In this document: positions 24,621-44,583 of the stretch, one piece after another
How the letters are laid out: every line of letters begins with the position of its first letter
How positions within the stretch are numbered: position 1 is the first letter of the stretch
Source of the DNA: Microlunatus phosphovorus NM-1
GTDB taxonomy: Bacteria > Actinomycetota > Actinomycetes > Propionibacteriales > Propionibacteriaceae
Length of the DNA: 64,000 nucleotides
Assembly: GCF_000270245.1 (NCBI RefSeq)
Contig: NC_015635.1
Coordinates: forward strand, 558,001-622,000
Reading direction: 5' to 3'
Notes under the pieces: model-generated
The model's input: the letters and a program-made list of their open reading frames with translations, nothing else
Told to the model about the DNA's origin: nothing
Databases searched by the model: none
Position numbers and translations under genes: made by a program

Positions 24621-24676
24621 TTGAGCGCAACCACGACACAACAAATCTGCAACGTTGATGTCCGACCTTGGTCGGT

Positions 24677-27600
24677 ATGGCGATTCTCGACAACCCTTCG
24701 GCGGTCGGCGCGGCAACCGATCAGCACTCAGCGGCCCAGGTCGCGCCCACTCGCGTCGACCGGCTGATCCGAGCCGCCGACCAACTCTGCCTGACACTGG
24801 AGTTCCTCAACCTGGACGTCGACCCGACTGGGCGCACACTGGTCACCGTCGATCCGCGGGTTGCCTTCACCGGCGTACGGATTGTGTTCGGCTCCCAGCA
24901 CACGGCCGAGGCGACCGTCGACGCCGACGAGGAGGCACCGACTGCGGGCGTCGACCACCGCCGCGCGGCAGAGTCCCGGCTGGTGGTCGCGCTTCCGAGC
25001 GGCACCCCGTACGCGTTGAAGAGCATCCTCGATCTCGCCGGGCGAGCGCTCGTCCTGGACGAACGAGCGGTCCCGAGCCGCAAACCGTCCAGCACGTCGT
25101 CCGAGCCCAGCTCTGAGGTGACCGCCCTCGAGCTGGTCGACTCGCTGATCTTCTCTCCCGAGCCGGACGGCCGATTCGCCGCTGGGCTGGTGCCGGTGAC
25201 CAGGGCGGACGTCACCGAGATCTGGCGGGCACGTCTCCTGCCCGAAGGCGAGACGGGCGTGAGCACCGACGCGGACTCGGCCGAGCGGGCCAAGCTCCGA
25301 GCGATCTGGTCCAGACCGGGCGACACTCCGCCCGACCGGCCGTTGACCTCCGACGAACGCAGCCGGATCGTCACCGCGACCACGGTCGACCCTGCCGAGG
25401 CGATCGAGGTGAACCGGCTTTGGCTGACCACCCACGGATCGTTCATCGACCTCTCCGGCGCCTGGGCCACCGGTCAGCTCGCGAGCTATCTGCACCGCAC
25501 CGTGGCCGGCCGAGACCTGCACGTCGAGACCGCGGAGCGTGGCTTCCTCGCACCCTTCGGTGTACCGGCAACGATCACCACCGTCATCGAGCGGGTGCTC
25601 AGCGACGATGCCGACGGCCACCCGGTTGCGATCCTCGTCCGGCAGGACTATCTGTCCGTCTCCGGTGCCGCGCGGGTGTTCCCGGCCGTGCGCATGCCGC
25701 AGGACGGCCGCGGCCTCCCGTTCTCCCGCGTCGTCGCCACCGACGGCGGACACGGACCGGTGGCGCTGATTCCGGTGACTCTCGACGACGGCAGCCAGAT
25801 CGGCACCGACAAGATCGCTGCCGTCACCCGCGACGGCGTACCCGTGGTGATCGGCTATCGGGCGACCGACCGGACCGCACGCACCGGCATCGCGTTCACC
25901 CTGCCGGCCATCTTCGTGACCCTCGATCACGCGTTCACCGTCCAGGACAGGGTCAACGGCGTTCTCACCCCGCTCGGCAATCTCAGCAGGTTCTTCGCCG
26001 ATCACCCGGTCGAGGCCGAACTGGGTGGTCAGTCGGTCGGCTGGGCCGACCCGCATCCCGACGGACGGGCCGGTTCGACTCGATCCACCCGCCTTATCCG
26101 GTTCGGTCTCGATCGGCCGGATCTGGCTGGGTCGAGCGCGAATGCGATCCGCGACGAGCTCGAGGCCGCGGGGCAGCCGGCGTTCTATCCGCGAGTGTCG
26201 TCCGCGCAGGTCACCGACGACGCGGTGGCGGCTCTGGTCGGTGGCAGCGAGGCGATTGAGGTGACCTATGCCGATGCCTGGCTTGCCCATGGCAACGGTC
26301 GCGCCAACCCCGGTCTCGCGTTCCACTCCCTGGTCACGCCGGGCACCCTGGACCGAACCGGCGCCGGGCAGGGCCTGGTTCGGCCGTCGCTGCGCATCGA
26401 CACCTTCAGCCAGACCCTCGGCTCCGGTATCGCTCCCACCGCCGGGATTGCATCGCCGCTCGCCGGGACGGCATCCTCCGCAGCCGGTGCGAGCGCCGGA
26501 CCGCCGATCCTCAGCTGGGATCCGGCAGCTGCACTGGGCGACGCGGCCAGGTTGTTTGGCTCGATCGCCCTGCAGGAGATCGTCGAGCAGGTCAACATCG
26601 CGCTGGACGACCTCGGCGGCGACACCGGGCTGCCGACCGTCGAGACGCTGCTCGAGGAGGAGGGGATCGGCTATCTGCTCCGCTGGCAGCCGAAGCTGAA
26701 GACCTTCCGGGTGGCCGGCGACCCGGTGTTCGTGATCGCCCAGGACCTGACCCAGGTCGGCCTGCCCGACTTCTTCGGCGACAAAGCAACCTCGACAGCG
26801 AAGATCGAGCTCAGCCAGTTCGTGCCGTTCGATGCCGATCCCGAGGAGGCGGTCGACACCGACTTCGAACTCAGCCTGGATAACGTCACGCTCCGGCTGC
26901 CACCCGGGGCACCCGCGATCGCCATCGCGTTCCGTCGGGTCAGCTACCACGATCCGGGTGACGGCAACGCCGCCCTGGACACCGATCTCGCCGACTGGCG
27001 GTTCATCGAGGTGCTGGAGTTTCTCGAGCCGGTCCGAGAGTTCATCGTCGGCCTGCTCGACCTCGGCGACATCGAGATCGACTCCGATGGCGTCCGCGCC
27101 GAGGTCGAGATCCCCGTGCCCAAGCTCGCCTTCGGGGTGATCAACGTGACCGGGCTGAACGTCGGACTCGGCTTGGACCTCCCCAACACGGGCAGTTCCA
27201 CGATCGGGTTCAACCTGTCCCGTCGCGACGACCCGTTCCGGATCACCGTGATGGGTTTCGGAGGCAGCGGCTCGCTGGAGGTGCGGCTGGTCGCCGACGA
27301 TCTGGACTTCCTGCTCGGCAGCCTGGCCGTCACCTACGAGCTGGCGGCCTCCATCGTCGTCGTCTCGGCCTCCCTCTCGGCCTCCTTGGGCATCGAGCTG
27401 ACGTACGAAGACTCCGCGGTCACCCTCGGCGCCTACGTCGAGCTCACCGGCAACGCCAGCGTGCTCGGCCTGGTGAACATCACCGGCAAGGTGCTGCTCT
27501 CGCTGCTCTACAACCTGAGCAGCAAGCTGCTCAGCGGCACCGCCCAGATCACCGCCGAGGTGGACACGCCGTTCTCGAAGTCCGACACCAGCTGGCGGCA

Positions 27601-27763
27601 GACCGTCGAGGTCTCCCTCGCCTCCGATGACGGCGGCCGACGATCACGAGCCGCTGTCCTGGGCGCCGGGCCGACCGCCGGTGAGCCGCTCGGTAGCGGT
27701 CCGTCGTTCGGCGATCGCTTCAGCGCCGACCAGTGGGCCGAATACTGCGCCGCCTACGTCTGA
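24677..27763 (+). CDS. Very large protein, 1028 aa, unknown function
   Basis: The frame begins at ATG 24677 with no clear ribosome-binding site; a palindrome (CCGACC-TT-GGTCGG) abuts it. There is no signal peptide or transmembrane helix. Residues about 1-600 are an alpha/beta mix with many strands (VPVTLDDGSQIGTDKIAAVT, GIAFTLPAIFVTLDHAFTVQ). A Gly/Ala/Ser-rich hinge follows near 590-620. The last 400 residues are long alternating beta strands (FELSLDNVTLRLPPGAPAIA, LGIELTYEDSAVTLGAYVEL, NASVLGLVNITGKVLLSLLY). This resembles large uncharacterised, repeat-rich bacterial proteins, but I cannot name a family with confidence. It forms a two-gene unit with the 1207-aa gene. Confidence 0.75.
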   Translation: MAILDNPSAVGAATDQHSAAQVAPTRVDRLIRAADQLCLTLEFLNLDVDPTGRTLVTVDPRVAFTGVRIVFGSQHTAEATVDADEEAPTAGVDHRRAAESRLVVALPSGTPYALKSILDLAGRALVLDERAVPSRKPSSTSSEPSSEVTALELVDSLIFSPEPDGRFAAGLVPVTRADVTEIWRARLLPEGETGVSTDADSAERAKLRAIWSRPGDTPPDRPLTSDERSRIVTATTVDPAEAIEVNRLWLTTHGSFIDLSGAWATGQLASYLHRTVAGRDLHVETAERGFLAPFGVPATITTVIERVLSDDADGHPVAILVRQDYLSVSGAARVFPAVRMPQDGRGLPFSRVVATDGGHGPVALIPVTLDDGSQIGTDKIAAVTRDGVPVVIGYRATDRTARTGIAFTLPAIFVTLDHAFTVQDRVNGVLTPLGNLSRFFADHPVEAELGGQSVGWADPHPDGRAGSTRSTRLIRFGLDRPDLAGSSANAIRDELEAAGQPAFYPRVSSAQVTDDAVAALVGGSEAIEVTYADAWLAHGNGRANPGLAFHSLVTPGTLDRTGAGQGLVRPSLRIDTFSQTLGSGIAPTAGIASPLAGTASSAAGASAGPPILSWDPAAALGDAARLFGSIALQEIVEQVNIALDDLGGDTGLPTVETLLEEEGIGYLLRWQPKLKTFRVAGDPVFVIAQDLTQVGLPDFFGDKATSTAKIELSQFVPFDADPEEAVDTDFELSLDNVTLRLPPGAPAIAIAFRRVSYHDPGDGNAALDTDLADWRFIEVLEFLEPVREFIVGLLDLGDIEIDSDGVRAEVEIPVPKLAFGVINVTGLNVGLGLDLPNTGSSTIGFNLSRRDDPFRITVMGFGGSGSLEVRLVADDLDFLLGSLAVTYELAASIVVVSASLSASLGIELTYEDSAVTLGAYVELTGNASVLGLVNITGKVLLSLLYNLSSKLLSGTAQITAEVDTPFSKSDTSWRQTVEVSLASDDGGRRSRAAVLGAGPTAGEPLGSGPSFGDRFSADQWAEYCAAYV

Positions 27764-27823: not shown

Positions 27824-30800
27824 ATGCCCGTACGTCACCTCCTTCCCTTTGCGCTTCCCACTGGCCGCACCGGACCAACCGGCCGGCTGACGGTCTATCT
27901 CTCGCCTCGGCTGAAAGCCGACGGGGTTCTCGCCGACTATCCGGAGTGGGTCGACTGGCCGGCCACCCTCGCCGGCTTGAATCTGCGGGTGCGCGTCGAC
28001 GGCGCGATCGTGCCGCACCGCGTGGTCAGTCCCGTTCCCTCCTCAGCTGTCTGGGCGGCGACGTTCACGCCAGATGCTCCGGTCGACGGGCACCGTTTCG
28101 TCGACTTCTCTCACACTCCGCTCCAGCCGATGGCCAGCGGCCGGGTCGCGACCTCCATCCTGGACACCTACGTCCGCATGGCCGCGGAGCATCCGGACGG
28201 CCCACCGGACGGTGCTCAGCTCTTGGCGCTGGCGGCTGCGGCCGGACTGCTCGACGGAGCCGGCACTGGCGTACCGGACCCAGGGAGCCTGGCCGAGGCC
28301 GCCGACTACCGGGCGCCGATGGACGACCGGGACACCCGTAAGCCGGAGGCGCCGGACTTCGATGTGCACGCCAGCATCAGCCTGCTTGGACACCACCCCG
28401 AACTGCTGCGTCACCTCGGGCTGGCGATCGACCTCGAGATCGGTCTGCCCGCCTCGCCCGGGCGGGTACGAGTCACTCTCGGCTATGGAGGTGCGGGCGG
28501 GCAGGCCCGCGAGATCGGCCTCATCACGCTGACCACGCCCGACTTCCTGGCCCAACCGAACCCCGACCCGAAGCTGCGCGAACAGAGCCGCGGCTTCCTC
28601 GCACTGGCTGCGGAGAAGGCATTCCTCACCATGATGGACCCGCACCTCGCCGCCTCTCGGCTGAGCCAGGCAGCCGCCCAGGCCGACCAGTTCGGCGAGG
28701 GTGTGCTGCCTGCCCTGGACAGCCGTGCCCTCACCCTGATTCGGCCGGATCTGAGCACGACGTACCGCAACCGCACCGAACGGCAGACCGAACTGGAGAC
28801 GGAGCTGCAGGCCAGCCTCGCGCCGGGCGGCTCGCCGGTCGAGCTGTTCGCCGAGGACCTGACCATCGGCCAACGGATCGATGTGTTCGACCTCACCGGG
28901 GCCGGTCGGTGGTCCAGTCTGTTTCAGCGCCGGACGAAGCAGGGCTATGCCTTCCCGCGCGACAAGTCGCTGAGCATCGTGCCGAAGCCCGACGAGGGAT
29001 GGAACACCACGGTCCTGGTCACCGAGCAGGAAGACGTTCGAGTGCTTCACCAGAATCCCGAGCAGGATGCGATCCTGCGGCCCACCGCACTGTTCCGCCT
29101 CGACGACGCGTTCTACAAGTGGGACGGCTGGAGTGGTGCTGTGCCGACTCCGAGCAGTGTGCTGGACTCCGTGACCGGTCAGCCGGTGGAGGCGAGCGAC
29201 AACCTCCCCACGGCTGATCAAACTGCACAGGTGGCGGTCGACTACGGCGTCGTGCCCCGCACCCTGCCGCGGCTGCGATTCGGGCGGACCTACCAGTTCC
29301 GTGGGCGCTGCGTCGACCTCGCGGGCAACTCCTGCGACCTGGCCACTGCCAACCCCACCGGCGCTGCGTCACCGCCGGAGCCTTTTGGCCGGCTCGAGCC
29401 GATCGCTGCACCAACTGCGGTTCGTCGTGCGCCGCGGCCGATTCCCGGCATCGGCGACAGCCCCGACACGCTGGTGCTGCTCGGCGACTACGACCTGGCC
29501 GATACCGACGTCGAAGCGGTCGAGCGGCTGTTCTTTCCTGGCCGGGTCGGCCAGGACCTCTGCGAGCTGCATGGACTCCCCGCGGGCGGTGTGGATCCGG
29601 CGAGCTATGCCGACCTGGTGACCCGAGATGCCCTCGATCTGGCCGATCAGACCGAGACCGACGAGCGGACGGGGGAGCTGATGGTGACCGGCCCGCCGCA
29701 ACCCGCTATTGGCTATCTGTCGGACCCGGCTGCCGTGGGGCTGCGGCTCGATCTCCCCGCGCTCGGCGTACCGGTCGCACTGTCACTCAAGGGCGTTTGG
29801 CCCGAGCGGCAGGCGACCCGGCTGGTCGTGGCCGCCGGGGATCCGTCGGCGGTGGTCGACCCGGATCCGGACACCGATCTGACCGTCTTCGTGCCGCAGG
29901 CGGAGATCGTCACCGGCTCGGTCAGCTACCGCATCGACCCGGCATTCTTGGATCACTTCGCGCTCTGGCAGCGGCTGAGTGCGGTCGACCAGGCAGAACT
30001 GAGCGAGCGGGTGATGGGCGGCGAACACTGGATGTTCACTCCGGCACGTCCGCTGACGCTGATCCACGCCGTACGCCGCCCGCTGCTGGCACCCGAAGTC
30101 GATCGGCTTGCGGTGGATCGTGACCTCGGATCGGCCGGGCTCCGGCTGAGCGGGACGCTGGTGGCCAGCTGCCTGAGCACGGATCGGGTCACGATCGGCG
30201 CTGCCTGGACCGACACTGTCGATGATCCGGCGCTGGACGCACCGGTGCCACGCCGTACGGCCATCGGACTCGGCACCGTGACCGTCCCGCGCTCCACCAA
30301 GAACGAGGTGAGCATCGAATCGTTGGAGAAGCGGTTGCCGGACACCAAACGGCACGAGGCCACGCTCCGGCTGGAGGCCTACTCCAGCTTTGCCGAGTAC
30401 TTCACCGAGGAGAAGGCTGTCGTGCTGGCCGACCGGCCGGTGCTGCTGGATCGCAAGGGCGTCGTGGCGAGCTCGGTCGAGGTGCGGTTGCCGGACGGCC
30501 GACGGGCGGATGTCGGAACAGACATACGGATCGACGAGCGACGCGGCGCGATCGTCCGGTTGCCCGGCGGTGTGATCCGCAGTGGCACCCAGGTGAGTGT
30601 CCGCTACGTCAGCCGACCGATCAGCCGGACCAGCGACGAAGCCGGATCGCCGTCGTTCTCGATCATCTTTCCCAACACCGTCGCGCCGCCGGCTCCGGTG
30701 GTGAGCGACGTGGTGCCGGCCTCGGCGCGGGACACGACGGGACATCACTCAGGTCAGGTGCTCCGGATCTATCTCGCGCGGCCGTGGCTGGTCTCCGGAG

Positions 30801-31447
30801 ACGGGGAGGGGCTGGCCGTGGACCTGTCGGCGACTCGGGTGGGCCGCGATCCGCTGCTGGCCGGCGGCGCCGACATTCCCGAGTTGACGGCGGCCCACTT
30901 CCCGCGCGCGACGGCTGTCACCGACGTGGACGGGACGCCGCTTGCGGTCCATCCCGTGACCTTCGACGCGACCAGCCGACGGTGGTACGCCGACATCGAG
31001 CTGGCCGATGGGTTCGGCTATCGGCCCTTCCTGCAGCTGACCCTGGCGCGCTACCAACCCGACTCCGTGGACGGCGCGACCAGGTCGGCGGGCGTGACCC
31101 TCGATGCGGTCCGGCTGGGGCTGGTCCGGGCGACGATCGCCACCAGGGTCGGCAAGAGCGTCGAGATCGAGGTCAGCGGGCTGGATGGGCTCGGCAACTC
31201 GGTGCAGGTGAGCCTGCAGCAGGCGGATCCGAACATCGCGGATCCCGAGCTGCGCTGGAGCAGCGTGGGCGATCCGGTCGGGCTGGTGGCGACGTCTGAG
31301 GGATCTGTCACGACTTGGTCGGGGAGCATCGAGGTGCCGGCGAGCGCCACGCGGCTGTTGGTCGAGGAGTTCGAGCCCGGTCTCCGGGAGCAGGACGGCA
31401 CGACGGTGTTGACCACCGTCTTCGTCGAAACGATCCCGCTGATCTGA
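27824..31447 (+). CDS. Very large protein, 1207 aa, unknown function
   Basis: It starts at ATG 27824 behind AAGGACGAG, 60 bases after the preceding giant gene. No signal peptide or membrane span. The N-terminus (LTVYLSPRLKADGVLADYPE, then WVDWPATLAGLNLRVRVDG) is followed by long mixed segments: YQFRGRCVDLAGNSCDL, a beta-sandwich-like centre and ARPLTLIHAVRRPLLAPEVD near residue 745. The C-terminal third is built of repeated beta strands (LRIYLARPWLVSGDGEGLAV, FLQLTLARYQPDSVDG) and ends SATRLLVEEFEPG. I recognise no catalytic motif. Size and strand repetition suggest a structural or surface-type role, which is inference only. Confidence 0.75.
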   Translation: MPVRHLLPFALPTGRTGPTGRLTVYLSPRLKADGVLADYPEWVDWPATLAGLNLRVRVDGAIVPHRVVSPVPSSAVWAATFTPDAPVDGHRFVDFSHTPLQPMASGRVATSILDTYVRMAAEHPDGPPDGAQLLALAAAAGLLDGAGTGVPDPGSLAEAADYRAPMDDRDTRKPEAPDFDVHASISLLGHHPELLRHLGLAIDLEIGLPASPGRVRVTLGYGGAGGQAREIGLITLTTPDFLAQPNPDPKLREQSRGFLALAAEKAFLTMMDPHLAASRLSQAAAQADQFGEGVLPALDSRALTLIRPDLSTTYRNRTERQTELETELQASLAPGGSPVELFAEDLTIGQRIDVFDLTGAGRWSSLFQRRTKQGYAFPRDKSLSIVPKPDEGWNTTVLVTEQEDVRVLHQNPEQDAILRPTALFRLDDAFYKWDGWSGAVPTPSSVLDSVTGQPVEASDNLPTADQTAQVAVDYGVVPRTLPRLRFGRTYQFRGRCVDLAGNSCDLATANPTGAASPPEPFGRLEPIAAPTAVRRAPRPIPGIGDSPDTLVLLGDYDLADTDVEAVERLFFPGRVGQDLCELHGLPAGGVDPASYADLVTRDALDLADQTETDERTGELMVTGPPQPAIGYLSDPAAVGLRLDLPALGVPVALSLKGVWPERQATRLVVAAGDPSAVVDPDPDTDLTVFVPQAEIVTGSVSYRIDPAFLDHFALWQRLSAVDQAELSERVMGGEHWMFTPARPLTLIHAVRRPLLAPEVDRLAVDRDLGSAGLRLSGTLVASCLSTDRVTIGAAWTDTVDDPALDAPVPRRTAIGLGTVTVPRSTKNEVSIESLEKRLPDTKRHEATLRLEAYSSFAEYFTEEKAVVLADRPVLLDRKGVVASSVEVRLPDGRRADVGTDIRIDERRGAIVRLPGGVIRSGTQVSVRYVSRPISRTSDEAGSPSFSIIFPNTVAPPAPVVSDVVPASARDTTGHHSGQVLRIYLARPWLVSGDGEGLAVDLSATRVGRDPLLAGGADIPELTAAHFPRATAVTDVDGTPLAVHPVTFDATSRRWYADIELADGFGYRPFLQLTLARYQPDSVDGATRSAGVTLDAVRLGLVRATIATRVGKSVEIEVSGLDGLGNSVQVSLQQADPNIADPELRWSSVGDPVGLVATSEGSVTTWSGSIEVPASATRLLVEEFEPGLREQDGTTVLTTVFVETIPLI

Positions 31448-32658: not shown

Positions 32659-32754
32659 GGAGGCGTCTGGGTTCCTGGTGGGCCCCCCGGTCTTCAACAC
32701 CGAGGAGGTCGAGCAGCTCGGCCTGGCGGGTTCGATTCCCGTCCGCCTCCGCCA
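32659..32754 (+). tRNA. selC: tRNA-Sec (anticodon UCA)
   Basis: A 96-base tRNA including encoded CCA has the anticodon loop CTTCAAC with TCA in the centre. The long variable arm is an eight-pair stem (AGGTCGAG with CTCGGCCT, one G-T) around CAG. The acceptor GGAGGCG pairs with CGCCTCC, and together with the T stem (GGCGGG with CCCGTC) it gives a 13-bp stack, as expected of Sec tRNAs. The D stem is short in loop and long in stem. It reads UGA in fdhA. Confidence 0.95.
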
Positions 32755-32794
32755 TGCCCAGACTCCGTGACCCGAGATCGCGAGGAGACCCCGA

Positions 32795-34111
32795 GTGAGC
32801 CAGGTGGACCCGCGACGGCTCATTCCTCGCACCGATGAGTTGCTCGCGTTGCCGGCAACCCGAGCTGCGGTCGAGCGAGTCGGCGTCCGCGTGGTACGCG
32901 ATCTGATCAGACAGACCCAGGATCGGGCACGTCGCGGCGAGTTGGCTCCCGACCAGGTCGAGCCGGTCGTGCTCGACCAACTCAATGCGCACCGCCCGAC
33001 CACACTGCGGCCCGTGCTCAACGCGACCGGGGTCGTGATCCACACCAATCTGGGTCGGGCGCCCCTGTCTCCCGCGGCCACTGAGGCCCTGCTGTCGGCG
33101 GCCGGATACGTCGACGTCGAGCTCGACCTCGCCACCGGGAGCCGGTCGCGGCGAGGGGTCGCAGCCCGCCAAGCCCTGCTGAGTGCCTGTCCGACCGCAG
33201 CCGACGCCTTGATCGTGAACAACGGTGCGGCCGCGTTGGTACTGGCCACCACCGCGCTGGCTGCCGGTCGCGAGGTGGTGATCAGCCGCGGCGAGTTGAT
33301 CGAGATCGGGGCCGGCTTCCGATTGCCGGACCTGATCGCTTCGACGGGCGCCCGCTTGCGAGAGGTCGGCACCACCAATCGTACGCACCTGCGCGACTAC
33401 CTCGACGCGATCGGCCCCGACACCGGCTGCATCCTGAAGGTGCACCCCAGCAACTTCCGAGTCACGGGATTCACCAGTGGCGTGTCGATCGGGGAGCTGC
33501 GATCCGCGATCTCCGAGATTCCGTTGGTCGCTGATCTGGGCAGTGGACTGCTGACTCCCGATCCTGCGTTGCCGGACGAACCTGACGCGACGACGGCCCT
33601 GACGGAGGGTGCCGATCTCGTCGTGGCCAGCGGCGACAAGCTGTTCGGCGGACCGCAGGCGGGGCTGCTGCTCGGCGCTGCCGACTTGACCGGGCGGTTG
33701 TCCAAGCATCCGCTGGCCAGGGCAGTCCGGGTGGACAAGCTGACCTTGGCCGCGATCGAGGCGACGCTCTCCGGTGGCCCGACCCCGGTTTCTCGGGCGC
33801 TTCATGCCGATCCGGACCGGTTGCAGTCCCGGGCCGAACGTCTGGCAGCCACGGTCGGTGGCACGGTGGTGCCGCACGACGGCCGGGTCGGCGGTGGGGG
33901 AGCGCCGGGCGTTCCACTGCCGGGCTGGGCCGTTCAGCTGCCCGAGGCGGCGGCCGAGCCGTTGCGTACGGGCGAACCGGCCGTGCTGCCCCGGGTCCAC
34001 GGCGGAGTTTGCCTGGTCGATCTCCGGTGCATCCCGGAGTCCGACGACGTACGACTCATGGTTGCCGTCGAGCATGCATTGGCCGCGATCGAGGGCCCGG
34101 AGTCCGGATGA
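32795..34111 (+). CDS. selA: L-seryl-tRNA(Sec) selenium transferase
   Basis: SelA converts Ser-tRNA(Sec) to Sec-tRNA(Sec) with selenophosphate. It has 438 residues from a GTG start (GAGGAGA upstream). Family segments are LPATRAAVERVG, NATGVVIHTNLGRAPLSPAA, VNNGAAALVLAT, EVVISRGELIEIGAGFRLPDL and the PLP-binding Lys282 in LVVASGDKLFGGPQAGLLLG. It follows the tRNA-Sec gene by 40 bases and overlaps selB by four bases (ATGA), so tRNA, selA and selB are likely co-expressed. Confidence 0.96.
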   Translation: MSQVDPRRLIPRTDELLALPATRAAVERVGVRVVRDLIRQTQDRARRGELAPDQVEPVVLDQLNAHRPTTLRPVLNATGVVIHTNLGRAPLSPAATEALLSAAGYVDVELDLATGSRSRRGVAARQALLSACPTAADALIVNNGAAALVLATTALAAGREVVISRGELIEIGAGFRLPDLIASTGARLREVGTTNRTHLRDYLDAIGPDTGCILKVHPSNFRVTGFTSGVSIGELRSAISEIPLVADLGSGLLTPDPALPDEPDATTALTEGADLVVASGDKLFGGPQAGLLLGAADLTGRLSKHPLARAVRVDKLTLAAIEATLSGGPTPVSRALHADPDRLQSRAERLAATVGGTVVPHDGRVGGGGAPGVPLPGWAVQLPEAAAEPLRTGEPAVLPRVHGGVCLVDLRCIPESDDVRLMVAVEHALAAIEGPESG

Positions 34112-35940
34112 GCTCCTACGTCGTCGCGACCGCCGGTCACGTCGACCACGGCAAGAGCACCTTGATCCGGGCGCTCACCGGGATCGAGCCGGATCGGTGG
34201 CCGGAGGAGCGGCGCCGCGGACTGACCATCGACCTCGGGTTCGCGTGGACGAGGCTGCCGTCTGGCCGCGACGTCGCCTTCGTGGATATTCCTGGTCACA
34301 AGCGGTTCCTCGGCAACATGCTGGCCGGGCTCGGCCCGGCGCCGGTGGTGCTGTTCGTCGTGGCGGCCGACGAGGGATGGCGAGCACAGTCGAGCGACCA
34401 CCGAGACGCGGTGGCCGCGCTCGGCATCGACGGCGGTCTCTTGGTGGTCAGCCGCGCCGACCGGGCACCCGAGCGCGTCGCTGATGTCGTGGAGCAGGCG
34501 CGTACGGAGCTGGCCGGCACCGGACTCCGCAACGCGCCTGCGGTGGTCGTGTCAGGAGTGACGGGCGTCGGGCTGGATGCGCTGCGGGACTCCTTGGACG
34601 AGGTGTTGGCACGGCAGCCGCTGCCCAATGCGCATAGCCGAGTGCGGCTGTGGGTGGACCGCTCGTTCAGCATCACCGGCGCCGGCACGGTCGTCACCGG
34701 CACGCTGTCGGCCGGCACGCTCCGGCGCGGCGACGCGCTGGATGTCGCCGGCAGTGCAGACCGGCCCCAGCCGACCAGGCGGGTGACCATTCGCGGGCTG
34801 GAGAGCGAGAACCAGGCTCAACCTGCCGTCGGTCCGGTGAGCCGGGTCGCCCTCAACCTGCGCGGCGCGGCGTCGTCGGATCTCCTGCGCGGCGAGGCCT
34901 TGGTGACCCCCGACGTCTGGCGTCTCACCGAGCTGCTCGATGTGCGCGGGGTGAGTGGGCCGGGGTTCGACCAGCTGCCCGAGCAGCTCACCGTCCACAT
35001 CGGGACCGCTGCCATCCCAGCGCGACTCAGGCCCTTCGACTCGTCCCATGCACGGCTGAGATTGGATCGGGCACTGCCGTTGACCGTGGGCGATCGCCTG
35101 ATCCTCCGGAACCCTGGCAACGGTGTGATCGGCGGTGCGCAGGTGCTGGATGCGGAACCGCCGGAACTGCGTCGCCGAGGTGACGCGGCCCGACGTGCGT
35201 CGGTCCTGACGACGATGCGGCCCGACGGCGATCTCGCTGTGGAGGTCGCACGACGTGGTGTGGTGGCGGAGGCTCAGTTGCGTCGCTTGGGTTTGCTCGA
35301 GGGTCCCGTGCAGGCGGTGCCAGAAGGCGTCCGAGTGGTGGACGGCTGGTGGCTGGACACGGCTAGGTGCGCGGCTTGGGCGAGGCAGCTGAGGACTGCG
35401 GTCGAGGAACTGCATCGTCGTGATCCGCTGGCCGCAGGCCTGTCCCGGGGGGCTGCCCAGGATCTGCTGGGACTCTCGGCGGCAGAACTGGTGGATGTCG
35501 CGGCGGACGAGGCCGGGCTGGTGCTGAATGACGGCTATCTCAGCGAGCCAGGTCATGTCGGGGAGCTGGGTCCGGCCGAAGCGGCCGTGGCCGAGCTCGA
35601 ACGGCGGCTGGCGACGGACCCGTTCCAGGCTCCGGAGGCCGATGATCTCGTCCAGCTCGGGCTAGGGGTTCGAGAGTTGGCTGCAGCCGAGCGGGCGGAT
35701 CGGCTGCTGCGGCTCCGAGACGGCATCGTCGTGCTGCCGAGATCACCCGCCCTGGCGATGCGTACGCTGGCGCAACTCGACCAGCCCTTCACGACCAGCG
35801 AGGCCCGGCAGGCGCTCGGTACCACCCGCCGGGTGGTGATCCCGTTGCTGGAACACCTCGACAGCCGCGGCTGGACCCGTCGACTCGACGCCGGCCACCG
35901 CGAGGTCGTTGTCGGTCGCGGGTCCGGACGCGGCTCCTGA
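34108..35940 (+). CDS. selB: Selenocysteine-specific elongation factor
   Basis: SelB delivers Sec-tRNA to UGA codons carrying a SECIS stem-loop. The 610-residue protein begins with the EF-Tu-like GTPase, GHVDHGKST at residues 10-18 and DIPGHKRF, and has the domain II pattern FSITGAGTVVTGTLSAGTL. The C-terminal half (from about residue 370) carries winged-helix repeats that read the SECIS RNA, ending RQALGTTRRVVIPLLEHLDSRGWTRR. Its presence supports the Sec reading of fdhA. Confidence 0.95.
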   Translation: MSSYVVATAGHVDHGKSTLIRALTGIEPDRWPEERRRGLTIDLGFAWTRLPSGRDVAFVDIPGHKRFLGNMLAGLGPAPVVLFVVAADEGWRAQSSDHRDAVAALGIDGGLLVVSRADRAPERVADVVEQARTELAGTGLRNAPAVVVSGVTGVGLDALRDSLDEVLARQPLPNAHSRVRLWVDRSFSITGAGTVVTGTLSAGTLRRGDALDVAGSADRPQPTRRVTIRGLESENQAQPAVGPVSRVALNLRGAASSDLLRGEALVTPDVWRLTELLDVRGVSGPGFDQLPEQLTVHIGTAAIPARLRPFDSSHARLRLDRALPLTVGDRLILRNPGNGVIGGAQVLDAEPPELRRRGDAARRASVLTTMRPDGDLAVEVARRGVVAEAQLRRLGLLEGPVQAVPEGVRVVDGWWLDTARCAAWARQLRTAVEELHRRDPLAAGLSRGAAQDLLGLSAAELVDVAADEAGLVLNDGYLSEPGHVGELGPAEAAVAELERRLATDPFQAPEADDLVQLGLGVRELAAAERADRLLRLRDGIVVLPRSPALAMRTLAQLDQPFTTSEARQALGTTRRVVIPLLEHLDSRGWTRRLDAGHREVVVGRGSGRGS

Positions 35941-36724: not shown

Positions 36725-36858
36725 CCCGTCGCGAGCGACCGTGAAGCGTAGCGCCCGATTCTGTCTGGACTGAGGAGTGAGCAGACAACGCTTTATCGTC
36801 TGCGAACGACGAGGGAAGACAGAATCAATCGGCGCGCAGCGGAACAGCGAGTGACGAC
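36725..36858. ncRNA. Candidate structured RNA motif / repeat, copy A
   Basis: The spacer between the DUF218 gene and the glycosylase gene has a nested structure. An outer stem pairs GATTCTGTC (36757-36765) with GACAGAATC (36818-36826), continued by GCGCC (36751-36755) with GGCGC (36831-36835). An inner hairpin pairs GCAGAC (36781-36786) with GTCTGC (36798-36803). The internal loop strands of 15 and 14 bases (TGGACTGAGGAGTGA, GAACGACGAGGGAA) are conserved in copy B at 43649-43775. Strand and function are unknown; it could equally be a DNA repeat. Confidence 0.5.
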
Positions 36859-36892
36859 CAGCACTGTCAGTGGTGACTGCCAGCATCGGCTC

Positions 36893-39486: not shown

Positions 39487-39738
39487 GAGCGATCAGCGCC
39501 CAGAAGCAAAAACACAACAAGCTTTCTGTTTTCGGAAGCGAAGTCAGACTGTTCAGTATGCGTGCTCGACCACGGATTCCTCGCATCTCTGCCCTGCACG
39601 GTGTGCCTAGGTCGTCGCGGCCGTTCGCGACGTCGGCACGCATTCACCGGCTACGTCGTCACTCTTCGTGAAGGCGAAGAGCGTGCCTTCACTCATCGTT
39701 CCTCCGCACGCCGGGCGCGCCGACTTCCCGCTCACGTC
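39487..39738. other. Non-coding spacer with one hairpin
   Basis: Between the deacetylase gene start and the end of the debranching-like gene no coding frame is supported. CTCTTCG (39660-39666) and CGAAGAG (39673-39679) form a perfect stem around TGAAGG and could end the transcript of the downstream-reading strand. An A-rich patch near 39505-39520 fits the deacetylase promoter region. Confidence 0.4.
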
Positions 39739-41957: not shown

Positions 41958-43595
41958 GTGTCTTCCCTGCCGTACGAGTTGAGTTCCCGGGTGCAAGCGA
42001 TCGCCGGAATCGATCCCGAGCTGCGCCCCGCCACCAAGCCCCAGTTCGGGCATTTCCAGAGCAACGTGGCACTCCGGCTGGCGAAATCGCAGGGGCAGCC
42101 GCCGCGAGTCGTCGCGCAGCGCATCGTTGACGAGCTCGATGTCGCCGACCTGTGCGAGCCGTTGGAGATCGCCGGGCCCGGATTCATCAACTTCCGGCTC
42201 CGTTCGGATGTGCTGGCGCGGGCTATCACCGATCAGCTGGCCGAGCCCGGCGTCGGAGTTCAGACCACCGACCATCCGCAGATCGTGGTCATCGACTATT
42301 CGGCGCCGAACGTGGCCAAGCAGATGCACGTCGGACACCTGCGGACCACGATCATCGGCGACTGCTTCAATCGGGTGCTGACCGCCGTCGGGCACCAGGT
42401 GATCCCGCAGAACCACATCGGGGACTGGGGGACCCAGTTCGGCATGTTGGTCGAGGAAGTGCTCGAGGAGGGTGTCGATGCGTCGACTCTTGCGCTGGTC
42501 GAGGCCGAAGCCCTCTACAAGCGGGGTTCGCTCCGCTTCCGGGAGGATCCCGCGTTCGCCGAGCGGGCCCGGCGCCGGGTGGTCGCGCTGCAGTCCGGGG
42601 ACGAGCAGACCCGGAGCATCTGGCGTCAGCTGATCGACATCTCGCTGGCCGGCTTCAACGCCACGTACGACCGGTTGAACGTCAAGCTGACCGACGACCA
42701 TCTGGCGGGCGAGTCGACCTACAACGACGATCTGGCCTCGGTCGCCGCCGAGCTCGAGACCGATGGCACCGGAGTGATCGACCAGGGCGCGTTGGTCGTG
42801 TTCGTCGAGGGCTTCAACGCACCGATGATCGTCCGCAAGTCGGACGGCGGCTACGGCTACTCGATCACCGACCTGGCCGCCGTACGGCACCGGGTCCGCG
42901 ACCTGCACGCCAACCGGATCATCTATGTCACCGATGCGCGCCAGAGCGACCACTTCGCCCAGGTGTTCGCCGTCTGCCGTCTGGCCGGCTGGCTGCCCGA
43001 CGACGTGATCGCCCAGCACGTCGGCTACGGCATGGTGCTCGGCCCGGACGGCAAGCCGTACAAGACCCGGGAGGGCAAGGCGATGCTGCTCGCCGATCTC
43101 CTCGATCTGGCGGAGGAGCAGGTGGCTCCGCCGATCGCGCTGGCGGCGATCAAGTACGCCGACCTGTCCAACGGGTTGAACAAGGACTATGTCTTCGACG
43201 TCGACCGGATGGTGCAGACCACCGGCAACACCGGGCCCTACCTGCAGTACGCGCATGCCCGGCTGGCCCAGGTGCTCCGGCGCGCGGAGGCCGAGGGGCT
43301 GGTCGTGGAGGAGAAGATCGCCGTCCTGGACGAGCCGGCAGAGCAGACGCTGGCGCTGCTGCTGACCCGGTTCGGCGAGGTGGTCGCCGACGTCGCCGAC
43401 ACGCTGCAGCCGCACCGGCTCTGTGGCTATCTCTATGAGCTGGCCGGGGCCTTGTCGGTGTTCTACGAGCAGTGCCCGGTGCTCAAATCGGATGGCGAGG
43501 TCCGGGCGTCCAGGCTCGCGCTGTGCACGCTGACCAAGAAGGTGCTGGCCAGCGGGCTCGACATGCTCGGCATCGAGCCGCTGGAGCGCATGTAG
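41958..43595 (+). CDS. argS: Arginyl-tRNA synthetase
   Basis: It charges tRNA-Arg with arginine using ATP. From GTG 41958 it has 545 residues, collinear with the E. coli enzyme. An N-terminal additional domain (FGHFQSNVALRLAKSQGQPP) leads to IDYSAPNVAKQMHVGHLRTTIIGD with the HIGH-type motif HVGH. NHIGDWGTQFGML, GYGYSITDLAAVRHR and GPDGKPYKTREGKAMLLADLLD (KMSKS position) follow, and the anticodon-binding domain ends LASGLDMLGIEPLERM. The longer upstream frame is repeat-rich spacer and is rejected. Confidence 0.96.
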   Translation: MSSLPYELSSRVQAIAGIDPELRPATKPQFGHFQSNVALRLAKSQGQPPRVVAQRIVDELDVADLCEPLEIAGPGFINFRLRSDVLARAITDQLAEPGVGVQTTDHPQIVVIDYSAPNVAKQMHVGHLRTTIIGDCFNRVLTAVGHQVIPQNHIGDWGTQFGMLVEEVLEEGVDASTLALVEAEALYKRGSLRFREDPAFAERARRRVVALQSGDEQTRSIWRQLIDISLAGFNATYDRLNVKLTDDHLAGESTYNDDLASVAAELETDGTGVIDQGALVVFVEGFNAPMIVRKSDGGYGYSITDLAAVRHRVRDLHANRIIYVTDARQSDHFAQVFAVCRLAGWLPDDVIAQHVGYGMVLGPDGKPYKTREGKAMLLADLLDLAEEQVAPPIALAAIKYADLSNGLNKDYVFDVDRMVQTTGNTGPYLQYAHARLAQVLRRAEAEGLVVEEKIAVLDEPAEQTLALLLTRFGEVVADVADTLQPHRLCGYLYELAGALSVFYEQCPVLKSDGEVRASRLALCTLTKKVLASGLDMLGIEPLERM

Positions 43596-43648
43596 ACCTC
43601 CCGTCGTGAGCGGCCGTGGAACCCCCGAGCGAGCGTCAGCGAGCGAGC

Positions 43649-43775
43649 CCCGTCGCGAGCGGCCGAGAGCAGAGCGCGGCTCTGCCTGGACCGAGGAGAG
43701 TGCAGACACGCTCTTCGTCTGCGGTCGACGAGGGAAGGTAGAGACTTGAGCGCGTCGCGAACAGCGAGCGACGAC
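43649..43775. ncRNA. Candidate structured RNA motif / repeat, copy B
   Basis: The convergent spacer between argS and ppgK repeats the architecture at 36725-36858. Outer stem CTCTGCC (43680-43686) pairs with GGTAGAG (43737-43743) and GCGC (43674-43677) with GCGC (43750-43753). The inner hairpin GCAGAC (43702-43707) with GTCTGC (43717-43722) is identical. Internal loop lengths are the same (15 and 14) and share GAGGAG and CGACGAGGGAA. Relative to copy A the outer stem has two U-A to C-G compensatory changes. Confidence 0.5.
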
Positions 43776-43782
43776 TACAGAG

Positions 43783-44583
43783 TCAGCCCATTGGGTCGGG
43801 GTGTACCAGCCGATCGGCGGCCAGCCAGGCGGCACCGACGATCCCGGCCGTGTTCAGCAGTTGGGCGGGGATGATCTGGCTCTTGAGCTTCAGCTTGGGC
43901 AAGAATTTGTGCGCCTTCTTGCTGACGCCGCCGCCGACCACGATCAGGTCCGGCCAGAACAGCGCCTCGAGCCGCTCGTAGTAGCGCTGCAGCTTGGGCG
44001 CCCACTCGGAGTAGGACCAGTCATTCCGCTCCTTGGCGCTGGAGGCCGCGTTGGTCTCGGCGTCCAAGCCATCGATCTCGAGGTGACCGAGCTCGGAGTT
44101 CGGGATCAGCACCCCGCGATGGATCATGGCGCTGCCGATGCCGGTGCCCAAGGTGGTGACGATCACCAGGCCGGGATGTCCCTTCGCAGCGCCGTAGTGC
44201 ACCTCGGCGATACCAGCGGCGTCGGCATCGTTCATCAGATAGATGTCGCGCTGCAGGACATCCTCGAAGATCTGCTCCGCCTCCGCGTCGATCCAGGAAT
44301 GGTCGATGTTGGCGGCCGAGCGGGTCTGCCCGTGGGTGACCACCGCCGGGATGGTGATGCCGATCGGTCCGTCGCCCACTTCGGCCTTGAAGTGGTCGAC
44401 GATCTCTGCGACGACCTTGGCCACATTGGCCGGAGTCGACTTGGCTGGTGTGTCGATGCGGAGCCGTTCGGCGGCGAACAATCCGGTGGCCAGATCGACC
44501 GGAGCTCCCTTGATGCCGCTGCCGCCGATGTCGATACCGAGCACGGAACGGCCGGGTGCTGCTACGGGTGGGGTGTCGGTCAT
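43783..44583 (-). CDS. ppgK: Polyphosphate glucokinase
   Basis: This actinobacterial kinase phosphorylates glucose with polyphosphate or ATP. The 266-residue ROK-family protein has the phosphate motif [42 protein letters not shown] (catalytic Asp), the second phosphate motif [15 protein letters not shown] and ELGHLEIDG; the C-terminal [11 protein letters not shown] is typical of PpgK. It is separated from argS by the structured repeat. Polyphosphate use fits a polyphosphate-accumulating lineage. Glucose 6-phosphate made here would feed pgi. Confidence 0.95.

Follow-up and report, generated by a model that had tools for sequence, protein, structure and literature searches.

The window, the whole 64,000 nt stretch of the Microlunatus phosphovorus NM-1 genome that was analysed, carries three copies of a structured repeat, here called copies A, B and C. 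A selenocysteine cluster lies near the copies (32659–35940), with genes for tRNA-Sec (Rfam RF01852), SelA and SelB (Pfam), and upstream of this cluster are two very long ORFs (24668–27763 and 27824–31447).

Copy A occupies nt 36725–36858 of the + strand, limits that are almost the same as those of the unit seen in tandem arrays, and is followed by a right-hand tail, CAGCA (36859–36863), ending at 36863. This right limit was set by alignment with locus L344. The ACTGTCAGTGG to the right of the tail looks like flanking target, because an element-free related genome reads ACTGTCGGTGG there. A terminal stem closes the unit, with its left strand, CGTCGCGAGC (36727–36736, +), pairing with its right strand, GCGAGTGACG (36847–36856, +); the stem includes one tandem G.A step, and was placed using the fold of an alignment of 56 units (A2; 51 from NM-1 and five from a related genome, G005) and the minimum free energy (MFE) structure of copy A. 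The main hairpin has an outer stem of GATTCTGTCT (36757–36766, +) paired with AGACAGAATC (36817–36826, +), and an inner hairpin (36781–36803, +) in which GCAGAC (36781–36786) pairs with GTCTGC (36798–36803). Between them are two internal strands, GGACTGAGGAGTGA (36767–36780, +) and GAACGACGAGGGA (36804–36816, +), assigned from column counts and variants. A sequence-only reading of this DNA had described an internal loop with strands of 15 and 14 bases; the loop is present, and its strands in copy A are 14 and 13 nt long.

Copy B (unit 43649–43775, +, with a TACAGAG tail at 43776–43782) has its main hairpin, made up of stem, ladder and inner hairpin, at 43678–43745 (+). It sits between argS, which ends at 43595, and a ROK-family gene (Pfam) whose stop codon begins at 43783. 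Copies A and B are homologous: blastn aligns positions 1–134 of copy A to 43649–43775 with 77% identity, far the best second match in the window. This end-to-end alignment agrees with the earlier proposal that the two share one layout, and the stem and inner hairpin it described are present in both. The base changes it listed for the outer stem were also found, namely two U-A pairs changed to C-G and one G-C to G-U in copy B, along with the loss of one more pair (to G.A). The left-end fragment of a further copy lies beside copy B at 43600–43618 (+), a match that is weak taken alone (blastn, E 0.2 within the window). Copy C, a divergent third member, was located on the − strand at 39655–39712 by R1, a covariance model of the main hairpin (E = 1.4e-4).

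Smaller motifs recur around the units. A small hairpin that contains two tandem G.A steps and reads CGAGCGAGC-GNNA-GCGAGCGAG, or close to it, stands directly to the left of several of them (43626–43647 at copy B, and L002, L003, L005, L009 and L038). The sequence (A)CTGTCAGTGG, or a near-match, follows several NM-1 copies by eye (the copy A flank at 36863–36873, L012, L039, L106, L109 and L112), and in some flanks a TANGAT-like box lies about 20 bases beyond it; by eye this looks like a recurring promoter sequence, with the element seeming to end just before it.

A conserved fold with a ladder of G.A steps

As RNA, the + strand of copy A folds exactly into the structure described above (−58.5 kcal/mol, z = −4.2), and none of 200 shuffled sequences folded as well. 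For copy B the + strand gave z = −1.6, a weaker fold that 10 of 200 shuffles matched. The corresponding values for the other strand were −2.2 for copy A and −1.3 for copy B, and in L091, a copy of the Kribbella type, they were −5.9 for the stated strand versus −3.5 for the other.

The internal strands form a ladder of four tandem G.A steps spaced by one or two Watson–Crick pairs. Reading from the apex, the steps are separated first by two pairs, then by one and then by two, with a G.A step at either end of the ladder. In an alignment of 43 cores from seven genomes (A3), the eight G.A columns held G.A or A.G in 36–42 of the 43 sequences, and there are ladder variants that move one G.A step by one position yet retain the step (CGACCGAG.../...CGAGGGAGG). 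The G.A steps are probably sheared pairs, the type known for tandem G.A steps from solved structures. The covariation suggests that tandem G.A steps may be natural structural units, maintained as such and able to change position within a helix.

Covariation had been proposed to reflect a conserved fold on the evidence of two copies, and the larger alignment substantiates this. In A3, 93.4% of cells were paired and 17 of 21 pairs showed double changes; none of 500 shuffles was as good on any of the five covariation measures, and sliding the partner by 1–3 columns reduced pairing to 30–44%. A second alignment (A5) comprised 54 cores picked for diversity across genera. Here 91.5% of cells were paired, compared with 69.8% in shuffled and 40–57% in slid controls, and the covariation score was 0.541 against 0.165. 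Four of the five measures exceeded the shuffles, while the number of pairs with a double change did no better (10 versus 9.2, reached by 178 of 500 shuffles). For part of this set the ladder columns prove nothing, because the search pattern there fixed most ladder bases. Pair 18/69 was left as N on both sides of the search pattern, and was G-C in 41, C-G in 12 and U-G in one of the 54 sequences; the outer eight stem pairs were likewise outside the pattern. The conserved-structure test thus found covariation over independent copies and taxa beyond both shuffled and slid controls, a result that does not separate RNA from single-stranded DNA. A covariance-model search, suggested in the sequence-only reading as a check, recovers further copies (below).

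No known class had been evident from the sequence, and Rfam likewise gave no match over the element. At gathering score the window contained only two tRNAs, the copy A region had no match at E up to 10, and 14 loci of relatives gave one tmRNA and one ASdes RNA, neither of them over the element. No known transposon family was identified either, which speaks against the motif being a known transposon end. Open-access literature searched by topic and by motif letters, a scope outside which most subscription papers fall, held no title or abstract start describing the repeat.

Copies in NM-1 and in other actinomycetes

The element had been presented as a structured RNA or repeat motif with one partner 7 kb away. 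Rather than two RNA loci, it is a high-copy repeat, both interspersed and in tandem, and empty-site comparison (next section) shows that it moves. The observation behind the earlier reading is thereby confirmed, and its interpretation is partly supported. In the NM-1 genome (5,683,123 bp), blastn matches number at least 51 at E ≤ 2.2e-16, mostly over the full length and lying on either strand, plus at least 13 shorter ones; these counts are lower bounds, with 40 of 92 first-look candidates scored. Model R1 gave 109 matches at E ≤ 1, and all but two of these also passed E ≤ 6e-4. The 107 stronger matches fall into 69 loci: 46 hold one match, 11 hold two, 9 three and 3 four, and 23 of the loci are head-to-tail arrays. 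Several blastn matches adjoin one another in head-to-tail order, repeating roughly every 129–134 bp, and unit length ranges from 122 to 135 among the A2 units. Mean identity inside arrays was 0.90 (17 pairs from 9 arrays, range 0.66–0.99) versus 0.79 over all 1540 pairs, suggesting that, on average, copies within arrays have been amplified locally; two arrays mix distinct copies (0.66–0.78 identity).

Flanks were fetched for 64 of the 69 loci, leaving out five, and none of the 64 lies inside a gene, as predicted with a home-made codon score. Relative to element orientation, the flanking gene pairs were ++ at 23 loci, +− at 21, −+ at 11 and −− at 9. The upstream gene is therefore directed into the element at 44 of 64 loci, a bias that neutral insertion alone would not predict. 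At two loci, a few bases separate the end of a tRNA gene from the right end of an oppositely oriented copy (tRNA-Leu, L010 1294–1377; tRNA-Arg, L038 952–1025). The 54 right ends compared in NM-1 tend to CAACACAG and then turn random. Right-end-only pieces adjoin full copies, and the terminal hairpin with its tail also occurs alone (e.g., at 2808871 and 2948499), which gives the larger unit the look of a smaller mobile module with hairpins placed within it. The main hairpin is missing from 1.18 Mb of the genome (2.81–3.99 Mb), and a gap of this length was given by none of 20,000 uniform placements of 69 loci. Three right-end pattern matches fall within this region, one with one mismatch and two with three.

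Outside NM-1 the element is patchily distributed across the phylum. Counting NM-1 in each case, blastn found the unit in 7 of the 57 genomes of the relatives set, R1 (E ≤ 1e-3) in 51 of 293 Propionibacteriales genomes and 4 of 37 genera, and the phylum-wide searches in at least 6 of 396 genomes with R1 and at least 6 of 396 with model R2, lower bounds that reflect the scoring of 12 or 13 candidates per genome. An exact-pattern scan of a genome contig collection gave at least 119 stretches. Among the matches listed were the genera Kribbella, Nocardioides, Actinomadura, Herbidospora, Microtetraspora, Streptosporangium, Nonomuraea, Planomonospora, Microbispora, Amycolatopsis, Actinophytocola, Virgisporangium, Actinoallomurus, Thermomonospora, Thermoactinospora, Thermocatellispora and Williamsia. 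Relatives in other genera keep the ladder and differ in outer-arm sequence, and beyond their main hairpin there usually come another short hairpin and then a tail, for example ATTCAACACAG.

Plasmids and phages gave no blastn match to the element. Nine pattern matches came from a viral contig collection; by reading, seven are coding-like false positives and two, on short contigs (L270 and L273), resemble the motif. One of the R1 matches from beyond the order, at L125 (G472), appears to be a different, G-rich type of hairpin. In the distant family f43, three small genomes (2.4–2.5 Mb) contain long hairpins that are related but clearly distinct (CTGAAAGAGGAGGGAGCACGC...; L122–L124, L128–L130, L133–L135, L138–L140, L142 and L144), and these are possibly a sister class.

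Empty and filled sites

Both sites in the window have counterparts in relatives. G005, the relative with the best matches and with other copies of its own, has no copy B, and the argS and ROK stop codons almost abut. The divergent gene pair around copy A is also kept in G005, with 231 bp between the aligned parts compared with 351 bp in NM-1 and no hairpin. R1 was run over 28 loci from relatives that have either gene pair and found no hairpin at either site; the single match (L343) was more than 2 kb off the intergenic stretch.

Junctions were also seen in Kribbella, where the search covered 38 genomes and used as queries the flanks of four copies, joined without the element (genus g15 was taken as Kribbella because the flanks of named Kribbella match it at 100%). 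The flanks were unbroken in many genomes, and in carriers they matched as two pieces that overlapped by 5–7 bases of the query and were separated by 112–117 bp. Occupied and empty sites thus differ by insertions of about 115 bp with a direct repeat of about 5 bp. At the L191 site, the empty form reads CCAG-GTCATG-CGCCC in six of the seven relatives shown (the seventh has CTCATG) and the filled form reads CCAG-GTCATG-[GGGCC...CAATACA]-GTCATG-TGCCC. The L259 site shows the same pattern with GTCATC and six empty relatives. The two repeats at L155 agree in the first five bases and differ in the sixth, and at L254 there were unbroken matches across the site, with no junction among the fetched loci. 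By reading, the neighbouring gene has ATGAC at its start codon, and the repeat, GTCAT, is the reverse complement of this; the left copy of the repeat pairs with the element's own right arm. The presence or absence of the element as a block, with a direct repeat of about 5 bp in Kribbella, shows it to be mobile, as judged by comparing genomes. Copies are also nested in the apical loop of other copies (L154 and L257). The single copies of NM-1, on reading, had no clear direct repeat around them.

By eye, the left arm of the element supplies or rewrites the start codon (ATG or GTG, then AC) of the left gene in Kribbella, at L183 and L191 among other loci, and insertion may therefore affect which start codon is used.

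What may move the element

Copies A, B and C probably belong to a family of small, non-autonomous mobile hairpins, recognised as a folded single strand by an enzyme acting in trans. One strand folds into a long hairpin whose neck holds the ladder of tandem, probably sheared, G.A steps. At its end the unit has another hairpin, which is GA-rich or has a GNA loop, and then a tail rich in A and C, typically CAACACAG. The ladder is present on the stated strand only, making this the strand likely to be under selection. The trans-acting enzyme would read the folded strand, and the direct repeat would arise from staggered or core-homology joining at the target. We infer such an enzyme because no Y1 transposase, carrier-wide reverse transcriptase, inverted ends, partner gene or autonomous copy was found. 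The leading candidates for the mover would be a recombinase using the core of about 5 bp or a diverged single-strand transposase; the direct repeats would also be consistent with template switching at this short homology during replication.

Several searches bear on the mover. No terminal inverted repeats were seen on inspection of the filled and empty sites, the ends being GGGGCC... and ...AACACA. Among 837 ORFs near the loci of the genome contig collection, no transposase or recombinase linked to the copies was found; the largest shared ORF groups (15 and 6 loci) were rejected as partner genes, being ABC-transporter ATPases (5 members tested) and short-chain dehydrogenases (3 members tested), both of them common superfamilies. 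Genes between close pairs of NM-1 copies look like ordinary housekeeping genes from their translations, by eye. An autonomous version was sought between close copies, among tail-less copies and among hairpin-less right ends, and was not found in any of them. A loose right-tail pattern failed on 38 of 121 copies, many of which, on reading, simply have variant tails. Right ends without a hairpin gave 30 pattern matches, compared with none in the reversed control, and the eight of these that were read were solo or partial modules, or chance-like matches with three mismatches, rather than larger elements.

A less probable explanation, though the best supported of the alternatives, is a class of structured RNA with a cellular role (a 3′-UTR element, a processing or terminator-like signal, or a small RNA) that spreads passively and is retained because it is useful to neighbouring genes. 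It would account for the z-score of copy A (−4.2 on the + strand, with the covarying structure as the MFE, and −2.2 on the − strand), for the excess of G.U over A.C pairs in A2, for a U.G pair present in 47 of 54 sequences and for the upstream gene reading into the element at 44 of 64 loci. Against it, sites differ among relatives, arrays of near-identical copies and nested insertions occur, there is no consistent gene partner, and copies lie beside start codons in Kribbella and at varied sites elsewhere.

Site-specific recombination is an improbable alternative: a tyrosine recombinase would insert circular copies over a core of about 5 bp, with the hairpin as an att site like integron attC. 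The core GTCAT is common to the direct repeats of different Kribbella sites, the left repeat pairs with the internal right arm, and head-to-tail arrays are common. As in attC, a folded single strand with bulges would be the recognised form. However, no recombinase was seen linked to the copies, the fifth and sixth core positions vary between copies, there are no cassettes, and the core boxes of attC, including the R-box core, were not seen by eye.

Small interspersed mobile hairpins are a known kind of element, represented by REP, BIME and MITE sequences, and movement of a REP/BIME-type or IS200/IS605-type element by a Y1 (HUH) transposase was considered. The element resembles the REP/BIME sequences that occur with RAYT in enterobacteria and Pseudomonas, in being a short, high-copy, intergenic hairpin that forms arrays, in having its strand marked by stem mismatches, and in the REP-sized solo modules of terminal hairpin and tail. 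It differs from them in its unit of about 115–140 bp, its nested hairpins, its G.A ladder and the Kribbella direct repeat; to our knowledge, REP/BIME and IS200/IS605 elements make no direct repeat at the target, whereas repeats of about 5 bp were present at the Kribbella sites. A search for Y1 transposase (PF01797) found none in the 23 panel genomes, while the control search matched 5 of 14 genomes (E. coli and four others). Y1 transposase was rejected as the mover on this result, leaving the explanation largely refuted and very improbable.

About as improbable, and if anything slightly more so, is a SINE-like retroposon, in which a reverse transcriptase acting in trans would use the structured RNA as its template for DNA synthesis at a nicked target. 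The element's short direct repeats without terminal inverted repeats, constant 3′ tail, strong RNA fold, and 5′-truncated, right-end-only pieces beside full copies are all features of this kind, and reverse transcriptase (PF00078) has four matches in NM-1 and at least one in 14 of the 23 panel genomes. The same search found none in the other nine, eight of which are carriers and include all three g15 (Kribbella) genomes, which makes this enzyme unlikely as the mover. That copies A and B are two unrelated palindromes, or similar by chance, is refuted by the 77% identity over full length, the 107 core matches and covariation reached by none of 500 shuffles; only the high GC content pointed that way.

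For the preferred reading, a mobile hairpin recognised as a folded strand, the moving form is slightly more likely to be single-stranded DNA than RNA. This lean rests on the several carriers that show no reverse transcriptase and on the many apical loops of the form C-GNA-G. A loop scan of 122 copies (loci L151–L270) gave 76 triloops in the second hairpin, 55 of them GNA and 52 C-GNA-G; in the main hairpin the commonest apical loops were CGAAG (30), CGCAG (15) and GGAAC (15). GNA loops are described as exceptionally stable DNA minihairpins in one published account (PMC6479982). With DNA parameters, the stated strand gave z = −0.1 for copy A and −0.9 for copy B, neither of which beats shuffles, and −4.5 for L091, where both strands were alike (−4.5 and −4.6). 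The DNA parameter set of ViennaRNA has no special triloops, placing GNA loops beyond its reach. Since RNA too can form GNA loops and tandem G.A motifs, and the scan picks the best-scoring hairpin, these loops give a lean and not a test. The ratio of G.U to A.C was 42:4 over 784 cells in A2 and 48:30 over 1200 cells in other genera. The ratio in A2, together with the one ladder pair that is U.G in 47 of 54 sequences of A5, fits RNA at least as well as DNA.

Two further kinds of known structure can be compared. Like MITEs and BOX/RUP-type repeats, the element is non-autonomous, interspersed and structured, with a short target duplication (in Kribbella, and none clear in NM-1); unlike them, it showed no terminal inverted repeats, and no parent transposon was found. 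Extraordinarily stable DNA minihairpins with GNA loops were reportedly described by Yoshizawa et al. in 1997. The element shares with these, and with sheared tandem G.A motifs of DNA, apical triloops that are mostly C-GNA-G, with N free, and a neck of tandem G.A steps; those are oligonucleotide structures, whereas here the motifs follow one another in a repeat found in nature. Its G.A-ladder anatomy, its direct repeat unaccompanied by inverted repeats at the ends, and the failure to find a transposase set the element apart as a variant new among mobile hairpins, possibly as a new class. In its fullest form this proposal is tentative, and we hold it with less than even confidence: a G.A-ladder hairpin would move as a folded strand, through an enzyme that is not a Y1/HUH or terminal-repeat transposase or a reverse transcriptase, would insert at the borders of genes (at start codons in Kribbella), making a short duplication, and would grow by nesting hairpins across actinomycetes.

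If this is true, many actinomycete genomes would carry an undescribed mobile hairpin that is active or recently active, and that alters the edges of genes, among them start codons and the bases immediately ahead of stop codons. The element offers a concrete system in which to ask which enzyme reads such a fold, as DNA or as RNA.
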